Of a stretch of 44,627 bases of DNA, positions 2,766 through 44,627 are shown piece after piece. The stretch spans positions 1-44,627 of the forward strand of contig JAKBUF010000004.1 of the NCBI GenBank assembly GCA_021844025.1, written 5' to 3'. The translations under genes and the position numbers were made by a program. The notes under the pieces are model-generated. The model saw nothing but the letters and a program-made list of their open reading frames with translations, did not search any database and had not been told where the DNA came from. This stretch comes from a bacterium (lineage in GTDB: Bacteria; Patescibacteriota; Minisyncoccia; UBA6257; JAGOQP01). Within the stretch, counting starts at the first letter, position 1. Every line of letters starts with the position of its first letter.

Positions 2766-5327
2766 TTATTCCCAATGTATTTGTTTTTCAAAGAGTTTTA
2801 TATAAGTAGCTAGGAGTGGGTGATCGTGCAACTGAGGATCTCTTTGCATAAGATGTTGCACTGATTCATACACATCTTTTACCATGGTTGGGTTTTGCAG
2901 TGCTTCCATTGCTAAATCAGGAAGTCCTGTTTGTTCGGTTCCCAGAAATTGCCCCGGTCCACGGAATTTTAAATCCATCTCCGCAAGCTCAAATCCATTT
3001 TTTGCAGATATAAGCGCCTTGAGTCGATCAAGAGTTATTTTTGAGTGGCTGTCGGTAAATAAAAAACAGTATGATTGATGCTGTGCCCTACCCACTCGTC
3101 CGCGGAATTGATACAACTGTGAAAGCCCAAAATGTTCAGATCCTTCAATAATCATGAGTGTGGCGTTGGGCACATCTACCCCCACTTCAATCACTGAAGT
3201 GGCAACTAGAATGTCTAGTTCATGATCTTTAAATTTTTTCATTACCGTGTTTTTTTCTATTGCCTTTAGTTGCCCATGCAACATACCAACTCGTAACTGG
3301 GGAAATACAGTTTTTGATAATTTTTTATACTCATCTTCAACATTTTTAACATCTAGTTGTGCAAGTTGCCGCGGGGTGAGTTTTTGTTCCGGATCTGCGG
3401 GTTGAATGCGTGGGCAAATTACAAATACTTGTCGTCCTTCTTTTATCTGTGAGCGCACAAATGCGTATGCGGTTGCTCGGTGTTGTGCGGGGACAATACG
3501 GGTGTCTATTTTTTTACGATTTTTAGGTAATTCGTTAATGGTGGAAAGTTCTAAATCTCCCAGTAGGGTGAGTGCGAGCGTGCGGGGAATAGGAGTGGCA
3601 CTCATGCTGAGTAAATGTGGACTGTAGTTCCGATGCGAACGATGCAAATTAGATTCGAATAACACGAACGAAGAGTTTAAAATTCGTTTTGCTTTTAGAT
3701 ATTTTTGTTGGAAATCAATAAGAAGCCCAAGCTTTAAATTTTTTGATTTTAGATACCTCATGGTTTGCGCATAATCTTCTTTCGTGAAAAATGGTTTTGC
3801 TTTAACTTCGATAAGTATTTTCCCATCTATAATAAAATCAGCAAAGTTTGATTTTCTTCCACCCACCTCTATAGCGGATTCTCTTTCATACGGAATCTTT
3901 TTTTCTTTTAGTTGTTGTTCTAATTCATCTGCATATTGACGTTCTCGTGCAAATCGCCCTAATTTATCTTGTACGTTAAAGAAAATACCCTGCAATGTAT
4001 AAGACAATTCCTTTTCTACAATTTTTTCATCATCCGTATTTTGTTCGCCAAATTCGAGTAAATTCGCATTGTTTGCATCGAATAATAAAGCTCTCTGGGC
4101 TACGCCGAATCGATGTTGTTCGTCAATAATAACCAACCCTACTTCATTAAATGAAATATTTTTTTGTATAACCGCGTGAGTTCCAATGATGATTTTTATT
4201 TTCCCCGAAGCAATGTACGCACGCAATTCTTTTTTGGTAATTTCTCGTTCCAACCCTTTTCCTAAAAACAACACGGTACGCGATGCGGTTAGTAGCCCCA
4301 CCCCACCTTCAAACTCCTCAAAAAAATTGGTGAATGTGTGATAGTGCTGTTGTGCCAAAACTTCAGTTGGGGCCATAAATACTGCTTGTTTACCGTGTGA
4401 CGCAGTTACTAATGCTGCTAGTGCTGCCACCACGGTTTTTCCTGACCCTACATCTCCTTGTAGTAATCGATGTGTGGCATGTGGTAGGGCAATATCTTGT
4501 AATATGTCTTGCAACGCGTGTTGTTGCCCCTCGGTTAGTTCAAATGGTATATAGGAAAGATATTTCGATATTTGTTTGGAGGTGTGGGGGAGTGCATATG
4601 ATACACGACGAGTAATTTCGTTTTTTTGATTTGTTTTTATAAGTTGAAGTAAAAATAAATCTTGATACATAAATCGTTTCCGTGCCTGTTGTGTTTGCAA
4701 TAATGATTCGGGTTTGTGCATTTGTACAAACGCCTCAGCAAGTATGGGGAATGTATGCTGCTGCATGATGCTCTCGGGAAGAAACTCCTTAGATGTTTTG
4801 GCAATGGGTAGTACTTTTTCCATAACAAATCGGATTCCCTTAGAGGTAATTCCTTTTGTTTCTGAATATATAGGAACTAACCTACCGGTGTGTCGAGGAA
4901 TATATGAATCTCTTGAAATAATCTCAAATTCGGGAGACTGAAATTGAGCGCGTTTACCCGTAAATGAAACCTTGCCTGCAATGTTAATTGCAAGGCCTTC
5001 TTTTAATTGATTCAGTAAAAATCGTTGATTAAACCACACCGCTTCTGCTTTCCCGCTCTCATCAACAATACGAGCGGTAATAACTAGATATTTTTTCCAT
5101 TTAGTTTTTGATACGGAGAGTTTTTCAATGGTGCCGTGTATGGTGGCAATTTCATTTGGCTGTAGTTGCGCAATTGGTTTTATAGCAGAAAAATCTTGGT
5201 ATCGAAATGGAAAATAATATAAAAGATCTTTTACGGTTTTTAGTTGTAATTTTTCAAGTTTAGCGGCAAATAGAGGTCCAATGCCTTTTATATGTGTGAG
5301 TGGAGTTGATAAAGATGCCAAGTCCAT
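2766..5327 (-). CDS. recG: ATP-dependent DNA helicase RecG with an about 150-aa in-frame insertion
   Basis: LTHIKGIGPLFAAKL, LLQGDVGSGKTVVA, DEQHRFGVAQR, SMSATPIPRTLALT, QLYQFRGRVGRAQHQSYCFLF. Confidence 0.95.
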   Translation of the reverse strand: MDLASLSTPLTHIKGIGPLFAAKLEKLQLKTVKDLLYYFPFRYQDFSAIKPIAQLQPNEIATIHGTIEKLSVSKTKWKKYLVITARIVDESGKAEAVWFNQRFLLNQLKEGLAINIAGKVSFTGKRAQFQSPEFEIISRDSYIPRHTGRLVPIYSETKGITSKGIRFVMEKVLPIAKTSKEFLPESIMQQHTFPILAEAFVQMHKPESLLQTQQARKRFMYQDLFLLQLIKTNQKNEITRRVSYALPHTSKQISKYLSYIPFELTEGQQHALQDILQDIALPHATHRLLQGDVGSGKTVVAALAALVTASHGKQAVFMAPTEVLAQQHYHTFTNFFEEFEGGVGLLTASRTVLFLGKGLEREITKKELRAYIASGKIKIIIGTHAVIQKNISFNEVGLVIIDEQHRFGVAQRALLFDANNANLLEFGEQNTDDEKIVEKELSYTLQGIFFNVQDKLGRFARERQYADELEQQLKEKKIPYERESAIEVGGRKSNFADFIIDGKILIEVKAKPFFTKEDYAQTMRYLKSKNLKLGLLIDFQQKYLKAKRILNSSFVLFESNLHRSHRNYSPHLLSMSATPIPRTLALTLLGDLELSTINELPKNRKKIDTRIVPAQHRATAYAFVRSQIKEGRQVFVICPRIQPADPEQKLTPRQLAQLDVKNVEDEYKKLSKTVFPQLRVGMLHGQLKAIEKNTVMKKFKDHELDILVATSVIEVGVDVPNATLMIIEGSEHFGLSQLYQFRGRVGRAQHQSYCFLFTDSHSKITLDRLKALISAKNGFELAEMDLKFRGPGQFLGTEQTGLPDLAMEALQNPTMVKDVYESVQHLMQRDPQLHDHPLLATYIKLFEKQIHWE
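3624..4073 (-). other. In-frame insertion inside recG encoding a GxxExxY / PD-(D/E)xK-like domain
   Basis: Residues about 419-568: LSYTLQGIFFNVQDKLGRFARERQYADELEQQLKEKKIPYERESAIEVGGRKSNFADFIIDGKILIEVKAKPFFTKEDYAQTMRYLKSKNLKLGLLIDFQQKYLKAKRIL, with D..(x9)..EVK. Confidence 0.8.
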
Positions 5328-5430
5328 ATATTACAGTATAGCATATGAAAGGGTTGATTTTGTTTGGGGTTAGTATATATACTGCAATCAGCAACTAATC
5401 CAATTACTAATACTAACCGAAGGAGTTATT

Positions 5431-5691
5431 ATGGCTGCTCTAATAATATACGGAGACCCAGACTTTTTTCTCCCAACTATTCTTATGGGAGGATATATAA
5501 CCGATGCGGCGCAGGACGATCCTGTGCGTAGAAAAGTTTTCATCCCCCCTGCCTTTCAAATGTTTATGGATCGGCATGGGAGTGGGCAATCGGGTATGTT
5601 CGGTCCGGGTTCTCGTAAGGGAAGGGTGAACATTATTAAGGGGCAGGAATTTGTTCAAACCCTCCATAATTCACTTGTGTCAAATTTTTAA
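5431..5691 (+). CDS. Hypothetical 86-aa protein
   Basis: RBS GAAGGAG upstream of ATG; followed by a terminator hairpin. Confidence 0.6.
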   Translation: MAALIIYGDPDFFLPTILMGGYITDAAQDDPVRRKVFIPPAFQMFMDRHGSGQSGMFGPGSRKGRVNIIKGQEFVQTLHNSLVSNF

Positions 5692-5697
5692 GGGTAT

Positions 5698-5725
5698 GCC
5701 GCTTCGTGCGGCTACTTTTTTTATT
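5698..5725 (+). terminator. Rho-independent terminator
   Basis: GCCGC TTCGT GCGGC ta CTTTTTTT. Confidence 0.6.
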
Positions 5726-5747
5726 TATTTTAATGTATACTTACGGT

Positions 5748-6263
5748 ATGGAAAATAAAGATACCCAGGTAAAACTAGATGAGAATCAAGAAGCTAGTAG
5801 CTTGTTTTCGTGGAGTATTCCCAGTCACGAACACCAAGAGCGTAGCTTTGGTTTTTTTGTTTGGATTATTTCAGTGATGGTTATTTTGCTTTTGTTTTCT
5901 GTTTGGCAAAAAAACTTTCTTTTTGGGATCTTTATTCTCATGGCATCGGGGACTGTTCTCTTTTTGTCTTTACAGCATCCCGAAACACATGAATTTGCTC
6001 TCACGGATAAATTTATTGTATTTGGTAATTATCAAGACACTCATACCTATAGCGAATTTTCTCATTTTGATGTGCAGGAGTTTTCTGATATTGATACAGA
6101 GATATTCCTTGCGTTTAAAGATAAGAAGCGTGCCCCCATTCATATGCGTATTTATCGGGGAGATGAACAAAAAATTGTTGCTATTTTAAAGGAGAAGAAA
6201 TTAGTAGAAAAAGAAATTGATGTTTCATTGTTTGAATCTATCTCTAAATTGTTGGGGGTATAG
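5748..6263 (+). CDS. Small two-TM membrane protein, conserved hypothetical type
   Basis: MENKDTQVKLDENQEASSLFSWSIPSHEHQERSFGFFVWIISVMVILLLFSVWQKNFLFGIFILMASGTVLFLSL... Start chosen at the internal ATG 5748. Confidence 0.7.
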   Translation: MENKDTQVKLDENQEASSLFSWSIPSHEHQERSFGFFVWIISVMVILLLFSVWQKNFLFGIFILMASGTVLFLSLQHPETHEFALTDKFIVFGNYQDTHTYSEFSHFDVQEFSDIDTEIFLAFKDKKRAPIHMRIYRGDEQKIVAILKEKKLVEKEIDVSLFESISKLLGV

Positions 6264-6338
6264 ATTCATTGCAATACTCTACGTTTTTTGGTATGGTTTT
6301 TTTACCCCGTATTCAGACAACGTAATTCATTTTTAAGA

Positions 6339-6390
6339 GCACCCGTTGTTCAACGGACCCCGAAGGATACTTCGTATCCAACGGGGTAAG
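6339..6390 (+). ncRNA. Structured leader element upstream of tRNA-Arg(GCG), copy 1
   Basis: GCACCCGTTGTTCAACGGA CCCCG AA GGATAC TTC GTATCC AA CGGGG TAAG. Same architecture as 21292-21343 with compensatory changes. Confidence 0.6.
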
Positions 6391-6423
6391 GTAGGACGAC
6401 AAGATTGTTTATCCCGTCTAAAT

Positions 6424-6498
6424 GCGCCCATCGTTCAATGGATAGGACGCGGGATTGCGGATCCCGTAATCGAGGTTCGACTCCTCGTGGGCGCACCA
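6424..6498 (+). tRNA. tRNA-Arg (anticodon GCG), CCA encoded
   Basis: GCGCCCA TC GTTC AATGGATA GGAC G CGGGA TTGCGGA TCCCG TAAT CGAGG TTCGACT CCTCG TGGGCGC ACCA folds as a cloverleaf. Confidence 0.93.
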
Positions 6499-6575
6499 GA
6501 ATCTGACTTTTTGATTTTTTTGACGCCATTTCGTGGGCGGCTCGCAGAGCCGCCCATTGATTTTGCCCCGACGAA

Positions 6576-6986
6576 TCAAGGCCGCTCGGCCCGGATGATC
6601 TCATCTCGTATCTCATCGTATAAGACCAACTGGTTCGGCCGGGACATGAACATCCTACACAAATCATTGAGTTGATCTCGCATCGGGATTACTGATCCCT
6701 TAAAACGGATCGTGCCGTCGGAATATGTCGCCAGGCCATTGATCTCCATCTCCTGCTTAAGTTGTTGGACTATCAAGTTGCAAGGTGTGTGTTCAGCAAT
6801 TCGTTTCTGGCTTTTTACACCATTGTCGTGCAACTCAGCGATTTCCTGACGGAGCGTTTTTATTTCGGATATAAGCAGGCGCAAAAGAATTTCGATCGGG
6901 ATTTCTCTGATCGAAAAACAATAAACTATTTTGATACTTACAATGGAATATCGGGTTGTCATTTTCATAGTCATTTTTTCTAACAC
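6576..6986 (-). CDS. Hypothetical protein, coiled-coil plus possible winged-helix C-terminus
   Basis: 136-aa ORF: ISEIKTLRQEIAELHDNG... and SDGTIRFKGSVIPMRDQLNDLCRMFMSRPNQLVLYDEIRDEI. Confidence 0.45.
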   Translation of the reverse strand: MLEKMTMKMTTRYSIVSIKIVYCFSIREIPIEILLRLLISEIKTLRQEIAELHDNGVKSQKRIAEHTPCNLIVQQLKQEMEINGLATYSDGTIRFKGSVIPMRDQLNDLCRMFMSRPNQLVLYDEIRDEIIRAERP

Positions 6987-38536: not shown

Positions 38537-38742
38537 GGTCTAATTATAGCTTGATATATACAAAAAATAAATTTCTTGGATACAGAGAAAATAACAATAT
38601 AAAATATCTCGTTACAGTGAGGTATCTTGCGCGTCTCTCCCAGACTGTCCGGTATTGACATAATTGCTTGTATATTTTCTGTATGTGCTATATACTTGAG
38701 AGTAGTTATTTTAAAATTGAAAATTTATTAGTGGAGGTATTT

Positions 38743-39723
38743 GTGAATTGGATATTATTTATTACTAATAGTCTTGATGTGCACGCTGATGTCGTGCAAA
38801 AGCTTCTTTTAGAGAGGGGTGAGGATGTTATTCGTTTAAACACAGACTCTTTTTCTTCCGATAGGTTTAGATTGGTTTTTAATATTCATCAAGGAGAAAA
38901 CTCTCTTTCTTTTCTTGGGAAAAGGGTGAATCTTGCTGAAATTAAAAGTGTTTGGTATAGAAGACCTGAGTCCTTACAAACTAATATTTCTCACTCTGGT
39001 CAGAATGAGTTTGCTCAAAGAGAACTTAAGGAATTATTATTTCAGCTTTATTTTAATCTTCCGAACTCTTTTTGGGTTAGTGATTATATCTCACTAGAGA
39101 AATCGAGACGCAAATACTCTCAGTTATTAACTGCTCATAGCTGTGGCTTCTTTATTCCGAAAACCTGTATAACTAATGATCCCGATGAAGCTAAACGGTT
39201 CTTTGCGGAGTGTAATGAAAACATGATATATAAAACATTACACTTACCAATCATCCAACCGGATAAAAGTAATGAGAAGACGTTAGGAGTTCCAACTAGT
39301 CTTGTTACTAATAATCTTATAAACCAAATAAGTTTAATAACCGCAACCGGGGGGATATTTCAGGAATATGTTGAGAAGGATTATGAAATTAGAGTTACGG
39401 TTATAGGTAATCAGATTTTTTCTGCGAGAATTGATTCTCAAAATGATCTATCATCTAAGGTTGATTGGAGAGACGGAGTTTTCTACGGGAAGACCGACGT
39501 CTATGCTCATAAACTTCCAGCGGAAGTAGAGCAACGCTGTTTTGATGTTACAAAAAAGATGGGATTAAATTTCGGGGCGTTGGATCTTATAAAAACCCCC
39601 GATGGTGAATATTTTTTTCTAGAAATAAACCCAAATGGCCAATGGTTATGGATAGAGGAGTTAACAGGGCAACCGCTGGTTTGTACTATGGCGGATTTGC
39701 TTTCTAAACCACCATCAAAATAA
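38743..39723 (+). CDS. MvdD/graspetide-type ATP-grasp ligase
   Basis: GTG start after GGAGG. ILFITNSLDVHADVVQKLLLERGEDVIRLNTDSF, SVWYRRPESL, FQEYVEKDYEIRVTVIGNQIFSARIDSQ, YFFLEINPNGQWLWIEELTGQP. Confidence 0.9.
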   Translation: MNWILFITNSLDVHADVVQKLLLERGEDVIRLNTDSFSSDRFRLVFNIHQGENSLSFLGKRVNLAEIKSVWYRRPESLQTNISHSGQNEFAQRELKELLFQLYFNLPNSFWVSDYISLEKSRRKYSQLLTAHSCGFFIPKTCITNDPDEAKRFFAECNENMIYKTLHLPIIQPDKSNEKTLGVPTSLVTNNLINQISLITATGGIFQEYVEKDYEIRVTVIGNQIFSARIDSQNDLSSKVDWRDGVFYGKTDVYAHKLPAEVEQRCFDVTKKMGLNFGALDLIKTPDGEYFFLEINPNGQWLWIEELTGQPLVCTMADLLSKPPSK

Positions 39724-39741
39724 ATAGAAAGGAGTGTAGAT

Positions 39742-39879
39742 ATGGAAAAAGAACAAATAATTGAGGTCTTTGCTCTATTGGTAGCAAAAGAGGATCCTCA
39801 AGATCTTTCTCCCAAAGATGTCCACGGATCGTATTCCAAGTCGACATACAAGGGTACCGACAGAGATGATTCTGACTAA
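39742..39879 (+). CDS. Putative graspetide precursor peptide (45 aa)
   Basis: RBS AAAGGAG, then MEKEQIIEVFALLVAKEDPQDLSPKDVHGSYSKSTYKGTDRDDSD*. S/T/K- and D-rich C-terminal core, directly after the ATP-grasp gene. Not in the ORF track. Confidence 0.8.
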   Translation: MEKEQIIEVFALLVAKEDPQDLSPKDVHGSYSKSTYKGTDRDDSD

Positions 39880-39907
39880 AGAATAGTTAGTTTCTTGCCT
39901 CTTTGAT

Positions 39908-39940
39908 AGTGCACCAGAGAAATTTGGTGCATTTTTTTAG
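39908..39940 (+). terminator. Rho-independent terminator after precursor gene
   Basis: TGCACCA GAGAAATT TGGTGCA TTTTTTT. Confidence 0.75.
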
Positions 39941-39961
39941 GTAGTGGGGTATTATATACCT

Positions 39962-40621
39962 ATGTTATTGTTAACTAAAAAACAGAGAAATAACTTTTCA
40001 AAAATACAACTATTTATTGTTGGAGAAATGCATGGCGCGAAAGAGAATATAAGAATTATTAAGGAACTTGTTAATATTCTCGATATTAATATTATCTGTT
40101 TTGAATTAGAAACAAAGTGGAACAAAGAATTTGCTCATTTTAATCGTAATAATTTTTTGTATAAATTAAAAAAGGAGCAGTGGATTTTGGATTCAGGTCT
40201 TTTTTCTTTGTCTCATGTTAACTTAGTCTCTTGGCTTTTAAGGCGCAAGAAGAGTGTGTGTGCTGTTCGTAAAGAGAAGAAAGATTGGAATGTATCGGAA
40301 AAAGAAACGGCATTGTATATTAATTCTCTTGCGCGGAAAAATCGGCCAGAGAGAATACTTGTTATTGTTGGTAATTCGCATGCTAGGAAAGGAACGTTTA
40401 CTTCAAAAGATGAATTTGGTAAAAAATATATTTATAAACCAATGCGTCTTTTTTTAAAAGATAAGGCTGTTAGTTTTTTGGTACGATATAGTAACTCTGT
40501 GGCCTATAATTTTGGAGCGATAGATCTTAAGGATGATGTTGCTTACAAAAAACTAGAAGGTTTATCTATGAGAGTAATTCCCTCGTCTAATAGTAGTTTC
40601 GAATATGATATTCTCGTATAA
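39962..40621 (+). CDS. ChaN/TraB-like (GExHG) protein, possible metal-dependent hydrolase
   Basis: LFIVGEMHGAKENIRIIKELVNILDINIICFELETKWNKE...RPERILVIVGNSHARKGTF. Confidence 0.5.
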   Translation: MLLLTKKQRNNFSKIQLFIVGEMHGAKENIRIIKELVNILDINIICFELETKWNKEFAHFNRNNFLYKLKKEQWILDSGLFSLSHVNLVSWLLRRKKSVCAVRKEKKDWNVSEKETALYINSLARKNRPERILVIVGNSHARKGTFTSKDEFGKKYIYKPMRLFLKDKAVSFLVRYSNSVAYNFGAIDLKDDVAYKKLEGLSMRVIPSSNSSFEYDILV

Positions 40622-40648
40622 TATTTGGTTTACCTTGGGTTACACAAT

Positions 40649-41494
40649 ATGATAAACCGAGAGCTTGAAAAAATATATAACAAGATTGTTGATGTTTATC
40701 CATTTCTCAGTGAAAAGGAACGTATTGATTTTGAGAAAAAGGCAAAAAATCTTATAAAGAAAACTCTGTTTAGTAAGAAGGGTGTTGGTTTCCTGTTAAA
40801 CCTTTTAAAAAATCCGCACGCATATTTATGGGTATGGAAAAAACCATCACTAGCCAAAATAAGAAAAAAAAGAAAGGTTTTATCTAAAATAGAAAATAGA
40901 ACTCTCAGCCTTACCATACCTTCGTGGTCTGGAGAGTTAGGAGTTTTAGATAAGAAATTAATAGATATATGTGTAAAAAATATTGAGAGATATGATGGCA
41001 TACTTATTGATGTCCGCAATAATCAAGGGGGGAATTCCCGCATAGCTCATAGCTTTGCCAGTATCTTTTTTAAGACCCCGTGTGTCTATGGGAAATTTAT
41101 AAAAAGAAAAGAGGGGGGTAAATTATTTTCTGTTACGGCGGTGCTTCAACCAAACAGTGAAATTTATCTTGATAAGCCAATAGTTATTCTTACTTCGAAT
41201 AAATGTTTTAGTTCCAACGAGTTATTTTTGGCTCCATTCAAAGTTTCGGGTAGAGCAATTCTAATAGGAGAAAAAACACGGGGAGGGAGTGGAAATCCGA
41301 TGCAAGAAGAAGTGAATCTAGGACATAAAAAGATTATTGTTCTGATTCCAACCTGGAGATTCTTTTTGGCGCGAAACAATGATCCTATAGAAAAAACAAA
41401 AATTAATCCAGATATTATATATAAAAAAAAGAATATACTTAATTTTGCTGTGAAATATTTGCAGGAAAAATCCAGTCACAGCAAGTCTTCTTAA
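40649..41494 (+). CDS. S41-family (C-terminal processing) peptidase-like protein
   Basis: YDGILIDVRNNQGGNSRIAHSFASIFF, IVILTSNKCFSSNELFLAPFKVSGRAILIGEKTRGGSGNP (Ser/Lys motifs). Confidence 0.82.
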   Translation: MINRELEKIYNKIVDVYPFLSEKERIDFEKKAKNLIKKTLFSKKGVGFLLNLLKNPHAYLWVWKKPSLAKIRKKRKVLSKIENRTLSLTIPSWSGELGVLDKKLIDICVKNIERYDGILIDVRNNQGGNSRIAHSFASIFFKTPCVYGKFIKRKEGGKLFSVTAVLQPNSEIYLDKPIVILTSNKCFSSNELFLAPFKVSGRAILIGEKTRGGSGNPMQEEVNLGHKKIIVLIPTWRFFLARNNDPIEKTKINPDIIYKKKNILNFAVKYLQEKSSHSKSS

Positions 41495-42275: not shown

Positions 42276-43196
42276 ATGAAAACAACAAAATTGTTTTTTG
42301 TTTTGGCTTCTGTCTTGATTTTTATTGTGTTGTTGCCAAGTCTTGTTTTTTCTCAAACCACCCAAAGTACTGCGGATCCGCAGAACGACTGGGTAGACAC
42401 CAATTCGTGGGTTGCATCTATTCCTCGGGCTCCATTCTATCAACAGAAGGTATATCTTTATAACGATGCTAGGAAGCATTATCCGGTGCTCGTATTTGAG
42501 CAGATGGACAGTAGTGTGACTATTGACGGAGCTACTTATTCTCAATACTACTACACCAGGACCAATTTCAATACCCCGAGCTCAATGCCTGCATATGTTG
42601 AAGTTGAGGGATGTATAGAAAATATCTCAACAAACCCCGATATTCAGATACGTCTGTCCGTTTATTTTGCTAATAGTAAAACGGGAGAATGGTCTGAGTC
42701 TGGAACACAGGTCATTTCAACCGATTGGAAAAAATATATATTTGATTTTAACAGACCGAGTGTTATGAAAAAATATAATATTTTTTCAATTACTGTTGGG
42801 ATGTATCCTGCGAATGGTAGGAGGGTGTTTTCGAAGGTGGGGTTGTATCAAATTAATTACTATGATCCCTCTATGAATCTCACGTGGAACTATAATCTTA
42901 TCACCGATGTTCCACGTGGAACCTCAACTCCAACCGAGTTTAAACTTGAACAAAACTACCCCAATCCATTTAATCCGGTAACAATTATAAAGTTCAAAGT
43001 TCCAAGTTCTCAAGTGGTGACTTTGAAAATCTATGACTTACTGGGCAGAGAAGTTGCTACTCTGGTGAATGAAGAAAAAGCTCCGGGTAGCTACGAAGTT
43101 AAATTTGACGGAAGCAATCTTGCAAGTGGGATGTATATCTACCAATTGCAAGCGGGCAATATGGTCATCAGCAAGAAGATGATGTTGATGAAGTAA
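42276..43196 (+). CDS. Secreted protein with C-terminal T9SS type A-like sorting domain
   Basis: Signal peptide ...LIFIVLLPSLVFSQ. C-terminus FKLEQNYPNPFNPVTIIKFKVPSSQVVTLKIYDLLGREVATLVNEEKAPGSYEVKFDGSNLASGMYIYQLQAGNMVISKKMMLMK. Confidence 0.9.
   Translation: MKTTKLFFVLASVLIFIVLLPSLVFSQTTQSTADPQNDWVDTNSWVASIPRAPFYQQKVYLYNDARKHYPVLVFEQMDSSVTIDGATYSQYYYTRTNFNTPSSMPAYVEVEGCIENISTNPDIQIRLSVYFANSKTGEWSESGTQVISTDWKKYIFDFNRPSVMKKYNIFSITVGMYPANGRRVFSKVGLYQINYYDPSMNLTWNYNLITDVPRGTSTPTEFKLEQNYPNPFNPVTIIKFKVPSSQVVTLKIYDLLGREVATLVNEEKAPGSYEVKFDGSNLASGMYIYQLQAGNMVISKKMMLMK
42908..42923. promoter_or_regulatory. parS-like ParB-binding palindrome
   Basis: TGTTCCACGTGGAACC; perfect 14-bp palindrome GTTCCACGTGGAAC, close to the parS consensus TGTTTCACGTGAAACA / TGTTCCACGTGGAACA. 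Confidence 0.65.
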
Positions 43197-43296: not shown

Positions 43297-43396
43297 TTTG
43301 TTGTATTTTTTGTTGTATGTTGTATGATATAAGTACGGTTATCGCGCGATAATCGAAGTAAATAATTGTTCTTTAACTTTCATGGAGGAACATATC

Positions 43397-43597
43397 ATGA
43401 AATCTCAGGGTTCTTCTGCCGTAACCGAAGAACAAACCTTGAAGGGTAAGGTAAATATCATCAAGCCGTTTCCATTGCTTTTTGCGGAGCACATGGAATC
43501 CAAAGGAATTCTTCGTCGGGGATTTGAGATTTATGACGATCCCACTACAGTTTCCACAACCGATGATCACGAAGATGCGGAAAGTGACGAATCTTGA
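43397..43597 (+). CDS. Putative graspetide precursor peptide (66 aa)
   Basis: MKSQGSSAVTEEQTLKGKVNIIKPFPLLFAEHMESKGILRRGFEIYDDPTTVSTTDDHEDAESDES. Microviridin-leader-like PFPLLFAEHME and a TT/ST plus D/E-rich C-terminal core; GGAGG upstream. Confidence 0.8.
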   Translation: MKSQGSSAVTEEQTLKGKVNIIKPFPLLFAEHMESKGILRRGFEIYDDPTTVSTTDDHEDAESDES

Positions 43598-43618
43598 TCT
43601 CGTGTCCTTGTGCAGTTT

Positions 43619-43645
43619 GAGGCGACCTAAGATCGCCTCTTTTTT
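43619..43645 (+). terminator. Rho-independent terminator after precursor
   Basis: GAGGCGA CCTAAGA TCGCCTC TTTTTT. Confidence 0.8.
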
Positions 43646-44322
43646 ATGAGAGGCAATGGACTTTCTGAATTAGCAAATAGTTCCCGGACCTTTTTTCCCC
43701 AAGGAGTTTTTTTGAATGATGCGGTGGTATCTTTTTGAAATAATCTCATTCCGATTGGTGCATACCTTCTCGATTTTTTAAATTGATTGGTTAGCCGATA
43801 AAAGTTCACTATATTTACGTATACTCCCCAATTTTTTTCATCCTCTCTAAGTCCTTTTTTTAACCACTGCTCTGCCTTCTTATATTCTCTTAACGATTCA
43901 TATACCAAGCCAACATTTTGAGTATATATTCCTTTTTTCCCCCGTTTTTGTGCAAACTTATATGCCTGCTGTACATAGAAAATTGCCCGTTTATTTTTTC
44001 TGTGCCACCAAACTCTTCCAATTCCCCATAATGCTTTATGTGAATGTGGATATTTTTTGAGAACCAGATGATAGATTTTTAATGCTTTTCTTTCAAGATC
44101 ACGTCGCGCCTTTTGATTTTTCATTTGTAGCGCATAATGGTCGTATAGTAATCCGAATTTGCACATCAATTCTTCATCAAAAACAGTAAGATGCTTTGAA
44201 AAATATTTCTCGAATTTTTTTACTCCATCCGCATATTTATATGTGTTCGTATAACTATCAAACACCCCTTTTAAATATTTATGATCTTTTTTTGAGATGA
44301 GTGTATTGACTATTTTTTCCAT
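43627..44322 (-). CDS. TPR-repeat-like protein
   Basis: KALKIYHLVLKKYPHSHKALWGIGRVWWHRKNKRAIFYVQQAYKFAQKRGKKGIYTQNVGLVYESLREYKKAEQWLKKGLREDEKNWGVYVNIVNFYRL. Confidence 0.8.
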   Translation of the reverse strand: MEKIVNTLISKKDHKYLKGVFDSYTNTYKYADGVKKFEKYFSKHLTVFDEELMCKFGLLYDHYALQMKNQKARRDLERKALKIYHLVLKKYPHSHKALWGIGRVWWHRKNKRAIFYVQQAYKFAQKRGKKGIYTQNVGLVYESLREYKKAEQWLKKGLREDEKNWGVYVNIVNFYRLTNQFKKSRRYAPIGMRLFQKDTTASFKKTPWGKKVRELFANSESPLPLIKKRRS

Positions 44323-44372
44323 ACGGTTTATTATATTTATAGCTATTTAAAACAAACTTATAGGAGCATGAA

Positions 44373-44627
44373 ATGAAAAATATTATCTTAATCGTTACTA
44401 GTTCTGAGGAACCTAACATTAAAAATGTTACTCCATTTCTTGAAAAAATGGAAGCGAAAATTGTTAGAGTAAACAACGATCTACTTTTTCACGATTATGA
44501 TCCCGTAACCTTTGGTCTTGTTAAAAATAATTGGATGTTATCTATCGGAGACGAGAGCATTTATCCATCTGATGTGAAGAGTATTTGGTATAGGAGACCC
44601 CATTTGCCAAAAATCAACGAATCGGTT
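44373..44627 (+). CDS. Second graspetide-type ATP-grasp ligase, N-terminal part (runs off window)
   Basis: RBS TAGGAG; MKNIILIVTSSEEPNIKNVTPFLEKMEAKIVRVNNDLLFHDYDPVTFGLVKNNWMLSIGDESIYPSDVKSIWYRRPHLPKINESV... Shares the S(V/I)WYRRP signature with the first ligase. Not in the ORF track. Confidence 0.85.
   Translation, partial: MKNIILIVTSSEEPNIKNVTPFLEKMEAKIVRVNNDLLFHDYDPVTFGLVKNNWMLSIGDESIYPSDVKSIWYRRPHLPKINESV

Follow-up and report, generated by a model that had tools for sequence, protein, structure and literature searches.

Relationship to described graspetide systems

Graspetide loci of CPR bacteria have been reported previously; those of ATP-grasp branch 1 include TPR genes, the role of which was called unclear (Biol Direct 2022, PMC8939145). 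The parts of that report drawn on here describe, for branches 1 and 2, CPR hosts, short precursors with cores rich in Thr and Asp behind a Pro-hydrophobic leader motif, and TPR genes within the loci, all of which recur in the locus considered here; a TPR gene lying antisense between precursor and ligase does not feature in them. Because CPR graspetide loci with TPR genes have thus been published, the present locus is not a new type, but joins an existing one. What is new is the conserved antisense layout, an extended precursor family, the rarity and charge of the TPR family, and a role for the TPR protein that can be tested.

The microviridins, made by MdnC/MvdD ligases, share with the relatives of the locus the combination of PF21068 with a RimK-type ATP-grasp domain and a leader helix of the PF.xRF type. 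By contrast with the microviridins, the core encoded here is without a TxKYPSDWE(D/E)-type sequence, there is a single ligase accompanied by a TPR gene, and the host is a CPR bacterium; further, the full-length orthologues of the ligase score only ∼220–260 bits against the MvdC and MvdD equivalog models, the cut-offs of which are 425 and 475.

A third point of comparison is rosaritide, a group 21 graspetide, where the synthetase MirB needs a partner protein, MirC (PMC13097080). The MirA/MirB/MirC system resembles the present subgroup in that a synthetase co-occurs with a non-catalytic protein, strictly so for rosaritide. MirC, however, is SurA/PpiC-like rather than a TPR protein, and partner dependence, which has been shown for rosaritide, is only proposed for the TPR loci (PMC13097080).

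Organization of the locus

The window, i.e. the whole stretch of DNA analysed (44,627 nucleotides), is the complete contig C7 (44,627/44,627 bases) of a CPR/Patescibacteria genome assembly of 528 kb in 25 contigs, which is 90% complete. The following features lie at its 3′ end.

43336–43355, no strand: candidate operator upstream of the precursor gene, a perfect palindrome TTATCGCGCGATAA (43339–43352) within a 2 × 10-nt inverted repeat
43384–43389, + strand: ribosome-binding site GGAGGA, serving the precursor start at 43397
43397–43597, + strand: putative graspetide precursor gene, 66 aa, ATG at 43397, with homologues (E 6e-9) and under purifying selection
43466–43489, + strand: leader motif PFPLLFAE, its PF unchanged across 10 precursors from TPR-linked loci
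43544–43594, + strand: predicted core TTVSTTDDHEDAESDES, in which Thr/Ser would be the donors and Asp/Glu the acceptors; TTVDTTGQYEDVRTDE in relatives
43619–43649, + strand: strong intrinsic terminator 3′ of the precursor gene (GAGGCGA-CCTAAGA-TCGCCTC, then TTTTTT), overlapping the 3′ end of the TPR gene
43627–44322, − strand: gene for a basic TPR protein, 231 aa, net charge +34, pI 10.1, a proposed partner, whose family adjoins a ligase in 10 loci
44362–44366, + strand: ribosome-binding site AGGAG of the ligase gene
44373–44627, + strand: putative graspetide ligase gene, incomplete at the contig end; the 85 aa encoded are N-terminal and include the pre-ATP-grasp domain with its SIWYRRP motif

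The TPR and ligase genes are divergent and separated by 50 bp (44323–44372). The row of three genes is not due to chance, because the genes recur together in other genomes. With an adjacent precursor, a conserved leader and a core of Thr/Ser/Lys and Asp/Glu residues, the row can be assigned with high confidence as a graspetide (omega-ester/amide-linked RiPP) gene cluster. The preliminary description had read it likewise, and that reading is strengthened by the MvdD-type ligase fragment, the conserved precursor and the orthologous full-length ligases described below.

The precursor peptide

The ORF ends at 43597 in ...YDDPTTVSTTDDHEDAESDES. An in-frame ATG at 43382 is unlikely to be the start, because that codon overlaps the GGAGGA ribosome-binding site. 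Although the peptide had no match in a family profile search, a six-frame search of 244 genomes of the same order gave two homologues (E 6e-9), in G038 (a Wolfebacteria MAG) and G226 (MAG DBS2-4.bin65), in each of which a single TPR gene separates the precursor gene from a full-length ligase gene; both have a PF..FAE leader and a YDDPTTV-TT-ED-DE core. The cores of the three closest precursors are YDDPTTVSTTDDHEDAESDES, YDDPTTVDTTGQYEDVRTDE and YDDSTTVDTTGQYEDTRTDE.

The likeness seen in the preliminary description between PFPLLFAE and the microviridin PFFARFLE helix is borne out by the relatives (PFPVRFAE, PFLTRFAK, PFALRFAE, PFAARFAQ), the leaders of the homologues following a PF[PLAT].[LR]FA[EK]-like pattern. 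The leader motif given for branch 1, Phhx(1,2)h within ∼30 residues, is likewise present, as P26-L-L-F-A30 in the window peptide and as PFLTRF, PFALRF and PFAARF in relatives. The branch-1 core, TxxxTx(6-10)Dx(1-4)D, is approached but not matched: the peptides of the window, G038 and G226 read TxxxTx5Dx3D, one residue short. In the parts of the branch-1 account drawn on here that core is typical of most members, with exceptions given, and is not defining (PMC8939145).

That the 66-aa frame is a chance acidic ORF might be suggested by its shortness and by the lack of a family match. However, its homologues (E 6e-9) stand in the same gene order, it is equipped with a ribosome-binding site and a terminator, and a comparison of the G038 and G226 precursors gives dN ∼0.06 and dS ∼1.3, i.e. 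dN/dS ∼0.05, a rough value from 66 codons. A chance origin, already refuted for the homologues by conserved order and dN/dS, was therefore rejected and is exceedingly improbable. Between the same two genomes dN is 0.11 or so against a dS of 0.49 for the TPR gene, and 0.05 against 0.62 for the ligase; thus precursor, TPR protein and ligase are all constrained, the precursor strongly so, dN being well under dS in each case. A strong, GGAGG-type ribosome-binding site is found at the equivalent position in most of the relatives' precursors, and terminator-like sequence lies immediately 3′ of several of them, as in the window. In the orthologous loci the conservation of the peptide together with the ligase, a point raised in the preliminary description, holds.

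The ligase fragment and its orthologues

The ligase had been reported as truncated by the window, and it is: 85 aa can be read and the frame is open at the contig end. Since the window is the entire contig C7, the truncation is that of the assembly. The fragment matches the MvdD pre-ATP-grasp domain PF21068 (4e-7, 30.6 bits, cut-off 27). SIWYRRP, previously taken as a ligase signature, is present, but belongs to the pre-ATP-grasp rather than the catalytic domain and by itself says nothing on catalysis. When the 85-aa fragment alone was compared with the PDB, the best match, CdnC, was not significant (E 0.13). A phylogeny of 27 ligases places the fragment, which occupies only a quarter of the alignment columns, with the ligases of G038, G226, G421 and L045 (support 99/97), all of them TPR-linked. 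Over the whole tree TPR linkage is clustered, requiring four changes versus 8.3 in shuffles.

The ATP-grasp residues, on which the preliminary description made its reading depend, could be checked in the orthologues: FLEVNPSGQ and DxR are retained in the full-length members of the clade, and the ligases of the six further loci with the antisense layout are full length with intact FLExNP and DxR, except that of L045, which is split into two ORFs. The DFR-type motif has been named as critical for activity (PMC13097080). Full-length clade members match TIGR04187/TIGR04185 and the MvdC/MvdD models at ∼1e-70, below the equivalog cut-offs, and the clade profile matches microviridin-type ligase structures (5ig8, 5ig9, CdnC 7mgv, AMdnB 7m4s) at 1e-78 to 1e-82. 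Thus the orthologues are MvdC/MvdD-type ATP-grasp ligases, and the window fragment displays the pre-ATP-grasp domain only.

It may be that the system is decaying in the source organism, and that the ligase gene is incomplete in the genome itself and not only in the assembly. Consistent with this, the remainder of the ligase, including its C-terminal half, was not found on the other contigs of the assembly at the thresholds used, two genus mates are without ligases, and there is the split ligase of L045. On the other hand, the open frame reaches the exact contig end, is preceded by a ribosome-binding site and scores above the PF21068 cut-off, and the precursor is intact; decay is accordingly considered improbable.

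Conservation of gene order

A precursor is present in all ten loci in which the TPR gene adjoins a ligase. Seven of these have the layout seen in the window, i.e. precursor and ligase on one strand with the TPR gene antisense between them (window, G038, G226, G026, G243, L045 and G421); the six beyond the window belong to other families and one other order. Among them, G026 is MAG WY2.bin82, G243 has two tandem precursors, and G421 is from the same class as the source genome but a different order. The antisense arrangement, called atypical in the preliminary description, is therefore the conserved layout of a subgroup. In the other three loci all genes are on one strand, in the order precursor–ligase–TPR (G040, Brennerbacteria, and G361) or precursor–TPR–ligase (G172).

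In L045, a Vogelbacteria contig, two ligases flank one TPR gene and one precursor (3286–6765), and it is the first ligase that is split (3840–4280 and 3286–3816, minus strand). L093 (G149) carries, at 5105–6301, a precursor-like ORF (MNTEELKPLASLFEE...TTTVSSDGCAWSDPWKG) beside an antisense TPR gene; the expected position of the ligase, at the contig end, is taken by a GNAT-like ORF. GNAT-like proteins with a YWTDxEFLxEL motif recur in four genomes in the vicinity of graspetide ligase or TPR genes (L031:4293–4763, L043:5495–5941, L045:2071–2532, L103:4138–4596), and are possibly a further accessory component.

The TPR protein

Pfam TPR matches to the 231-aa protein are weak. Its predicted structure is a confident all-helical superhelix of five repeats (pLDDT 91). 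A fold search with this model returned only generic and designed TPR superhelices, and so gave no hint as to function.

The TPR family is rare, being found at E <1e-14 in 12 of 244 genomes of the same order and, similarly, in 8 of 384 genomes sampled class-wide. It is concentrated where the ligase is: 9 of the 12 genomes have a ligase, compared with 22 of the 244 overall (hypergeometric p 1e-8, phylogeny being ignored). Exceptions exist in both directions, with intact TPR genes lacking a nearby ligase in L043 and G100, and no TPR gene detected for G119, the ligase of which sits in a neighbouring clade. Distances in the TPR and ligase trees are not significantly correlated (r 0.26, Mantel p 0.18); groupings common to both trees include the sister pair G038/G226, G421 with L045, and G026 with G243.

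Strong basicity is common to the whole family (net +14 to +37, pI 9.6–10.3). Per 100 residues the family carries +7 to +17, versus −3 to +6 for other TPR-containing frames of related genomes, these controls being a handful of frames and in part large membrane proteins. Such a charge is also compatible with nucleic acid binding. Fourteen columns are invariant in the family; in a register set by hand from the G8/Y11 consensus, D61 and H62 of repeat 2 fall at TPR positions 12 and 13, respectively, and R103 of repeat 3 at position 9. Positions 9, 12 and 13 are among those that are normally variable and contact ligands (PMC1261162). The invariance of D61, H62 and R103 thus points to one conserved ligand, for which the acidic precursor or the ligase would be the obvious candidates.

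Three roles can be considered for such a protein. RRNPP receptors bind peptides via TPR grooves, and the TPR protein might be a peptide-sensing regulator of this kind with the precursor as its signal, a view with which the candidate operator upstream of the precursor gene, found once in the 528-kb assembly even when one mismatch is allowed, is consistent. By contrast, the protein consists of five repeats only, without an HTH or effector domain, no Rap or NprR was among the 50 best fold matches, and the precursor accompanies every ligase-adjoining TPR gene; the RRNPP reading was rejected, and we regard it as very improbable.

The second role is immunity or sequestration, in which the TPR protein would bind the acidic mature or premature peptide and so protect the producer. 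The pairing of a strongly basic protein with an acidic peptide would suit this, as would the occurrence of the TPR gene in some loci only, antisense and with its start divergent from that of the ligase gene; the orphan genes of L043 and G100 could represent immunity alone. Against it, G005 has a broken TPR gene (L092, 6304–6963) and G015 a fragment of one (L095, 4498–4806), in neither case with an adjacent ligase, as would fit a need lost once the ligase was lost, and we know of no bioactivity for any CPR graspetide. This reading appears unlikely, though it is the main rival to the third, in which the TPR family supplies a partner protein. The partner reading leads, and we give it about an even chance. 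The co-occurrence of TPR protein and ligase is observed, and a requirement for the TPR protein in ring formation is proposed by analogy with rosaritide. More tentatively, the basic TPR family may be a new class of obligatory partner for CPR graspetide synthetases, its groove holding the acidic core or the leader for ring closure.

Proposed pathway

Our preferred explanation is that of a graspetide cluster with a dedicated TPR component, a proposed partner. The precursor would be expressed from a separate transcription unit, and its PF-leader would dock onto the ATP-grasp synthetase encoded at 44373. The synthetase, by the chemistry of its family, would phosphorylate Asp/Glu side chains in the acidic C-terminal core and close ester bonds to Thr/Ser of TTVSTT. 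The antisense TPR gene would encode a dedicated component of the subgroup, the basic concave groove of which may hold the acidic precursor and/or steady the synthetase, a dependence like that of MirB on MirC in rosaritide biosynthesis. Macrocyclisation, the ring pattern, the TPR role and the completeness of the ligase in the source organism are what we infer from these comparisons. In favour of the explanation are the PF21068 fragment, the TPR-linked ligase clade, the conserved layout, purifying selection, the concentration of TPR genes with ligases and the basic TPR charge; against it count the cut at 85 residues, the orphan TPR genes, the G119 ligase without one, the Mantel result and, through its compatibility with nucleic acid binding, the charge. 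On balance we are only slightly less confident in the explanation as a whole than in the cluster assignment.

The locus and its relatives offer a compact three-gene set for direct tests of the unexplained TPR association, with natural variants available in different families, in the two precursors of G243 and in the two other gene orders.

A neighbouring graspetide system and other genes

The window encodes another, different graspetide system at 38668–41494, with a full ligase (TIGR04187, E 1.6e-67), the true start of which is probably near 38740–38752. Its 45-aa precursor at 39742 is conserved beside related ligases in G017 (L034:4670–4819) and G010 (L036). Also part of this system are a GEMHGAKEN protein (39944–40621), a look-alike of which in L031 matches ChaN/Tiki PF04187, and an S41 peptidase (40625–41494). 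CPR bacteria are regarded as living on other microbes. That a genome of half a megabase accommodates two distinct graspetide systems within 6 kb suggests that the peptides are worth their cost. Two secreted proteins of the same genome, encoded at 42276–43196 of the window and at G000:C24:12807–13034, carry a C-terminal sorting domain of the Bacteroidetes T9SS type (TIGR04183, scores above cut-off).
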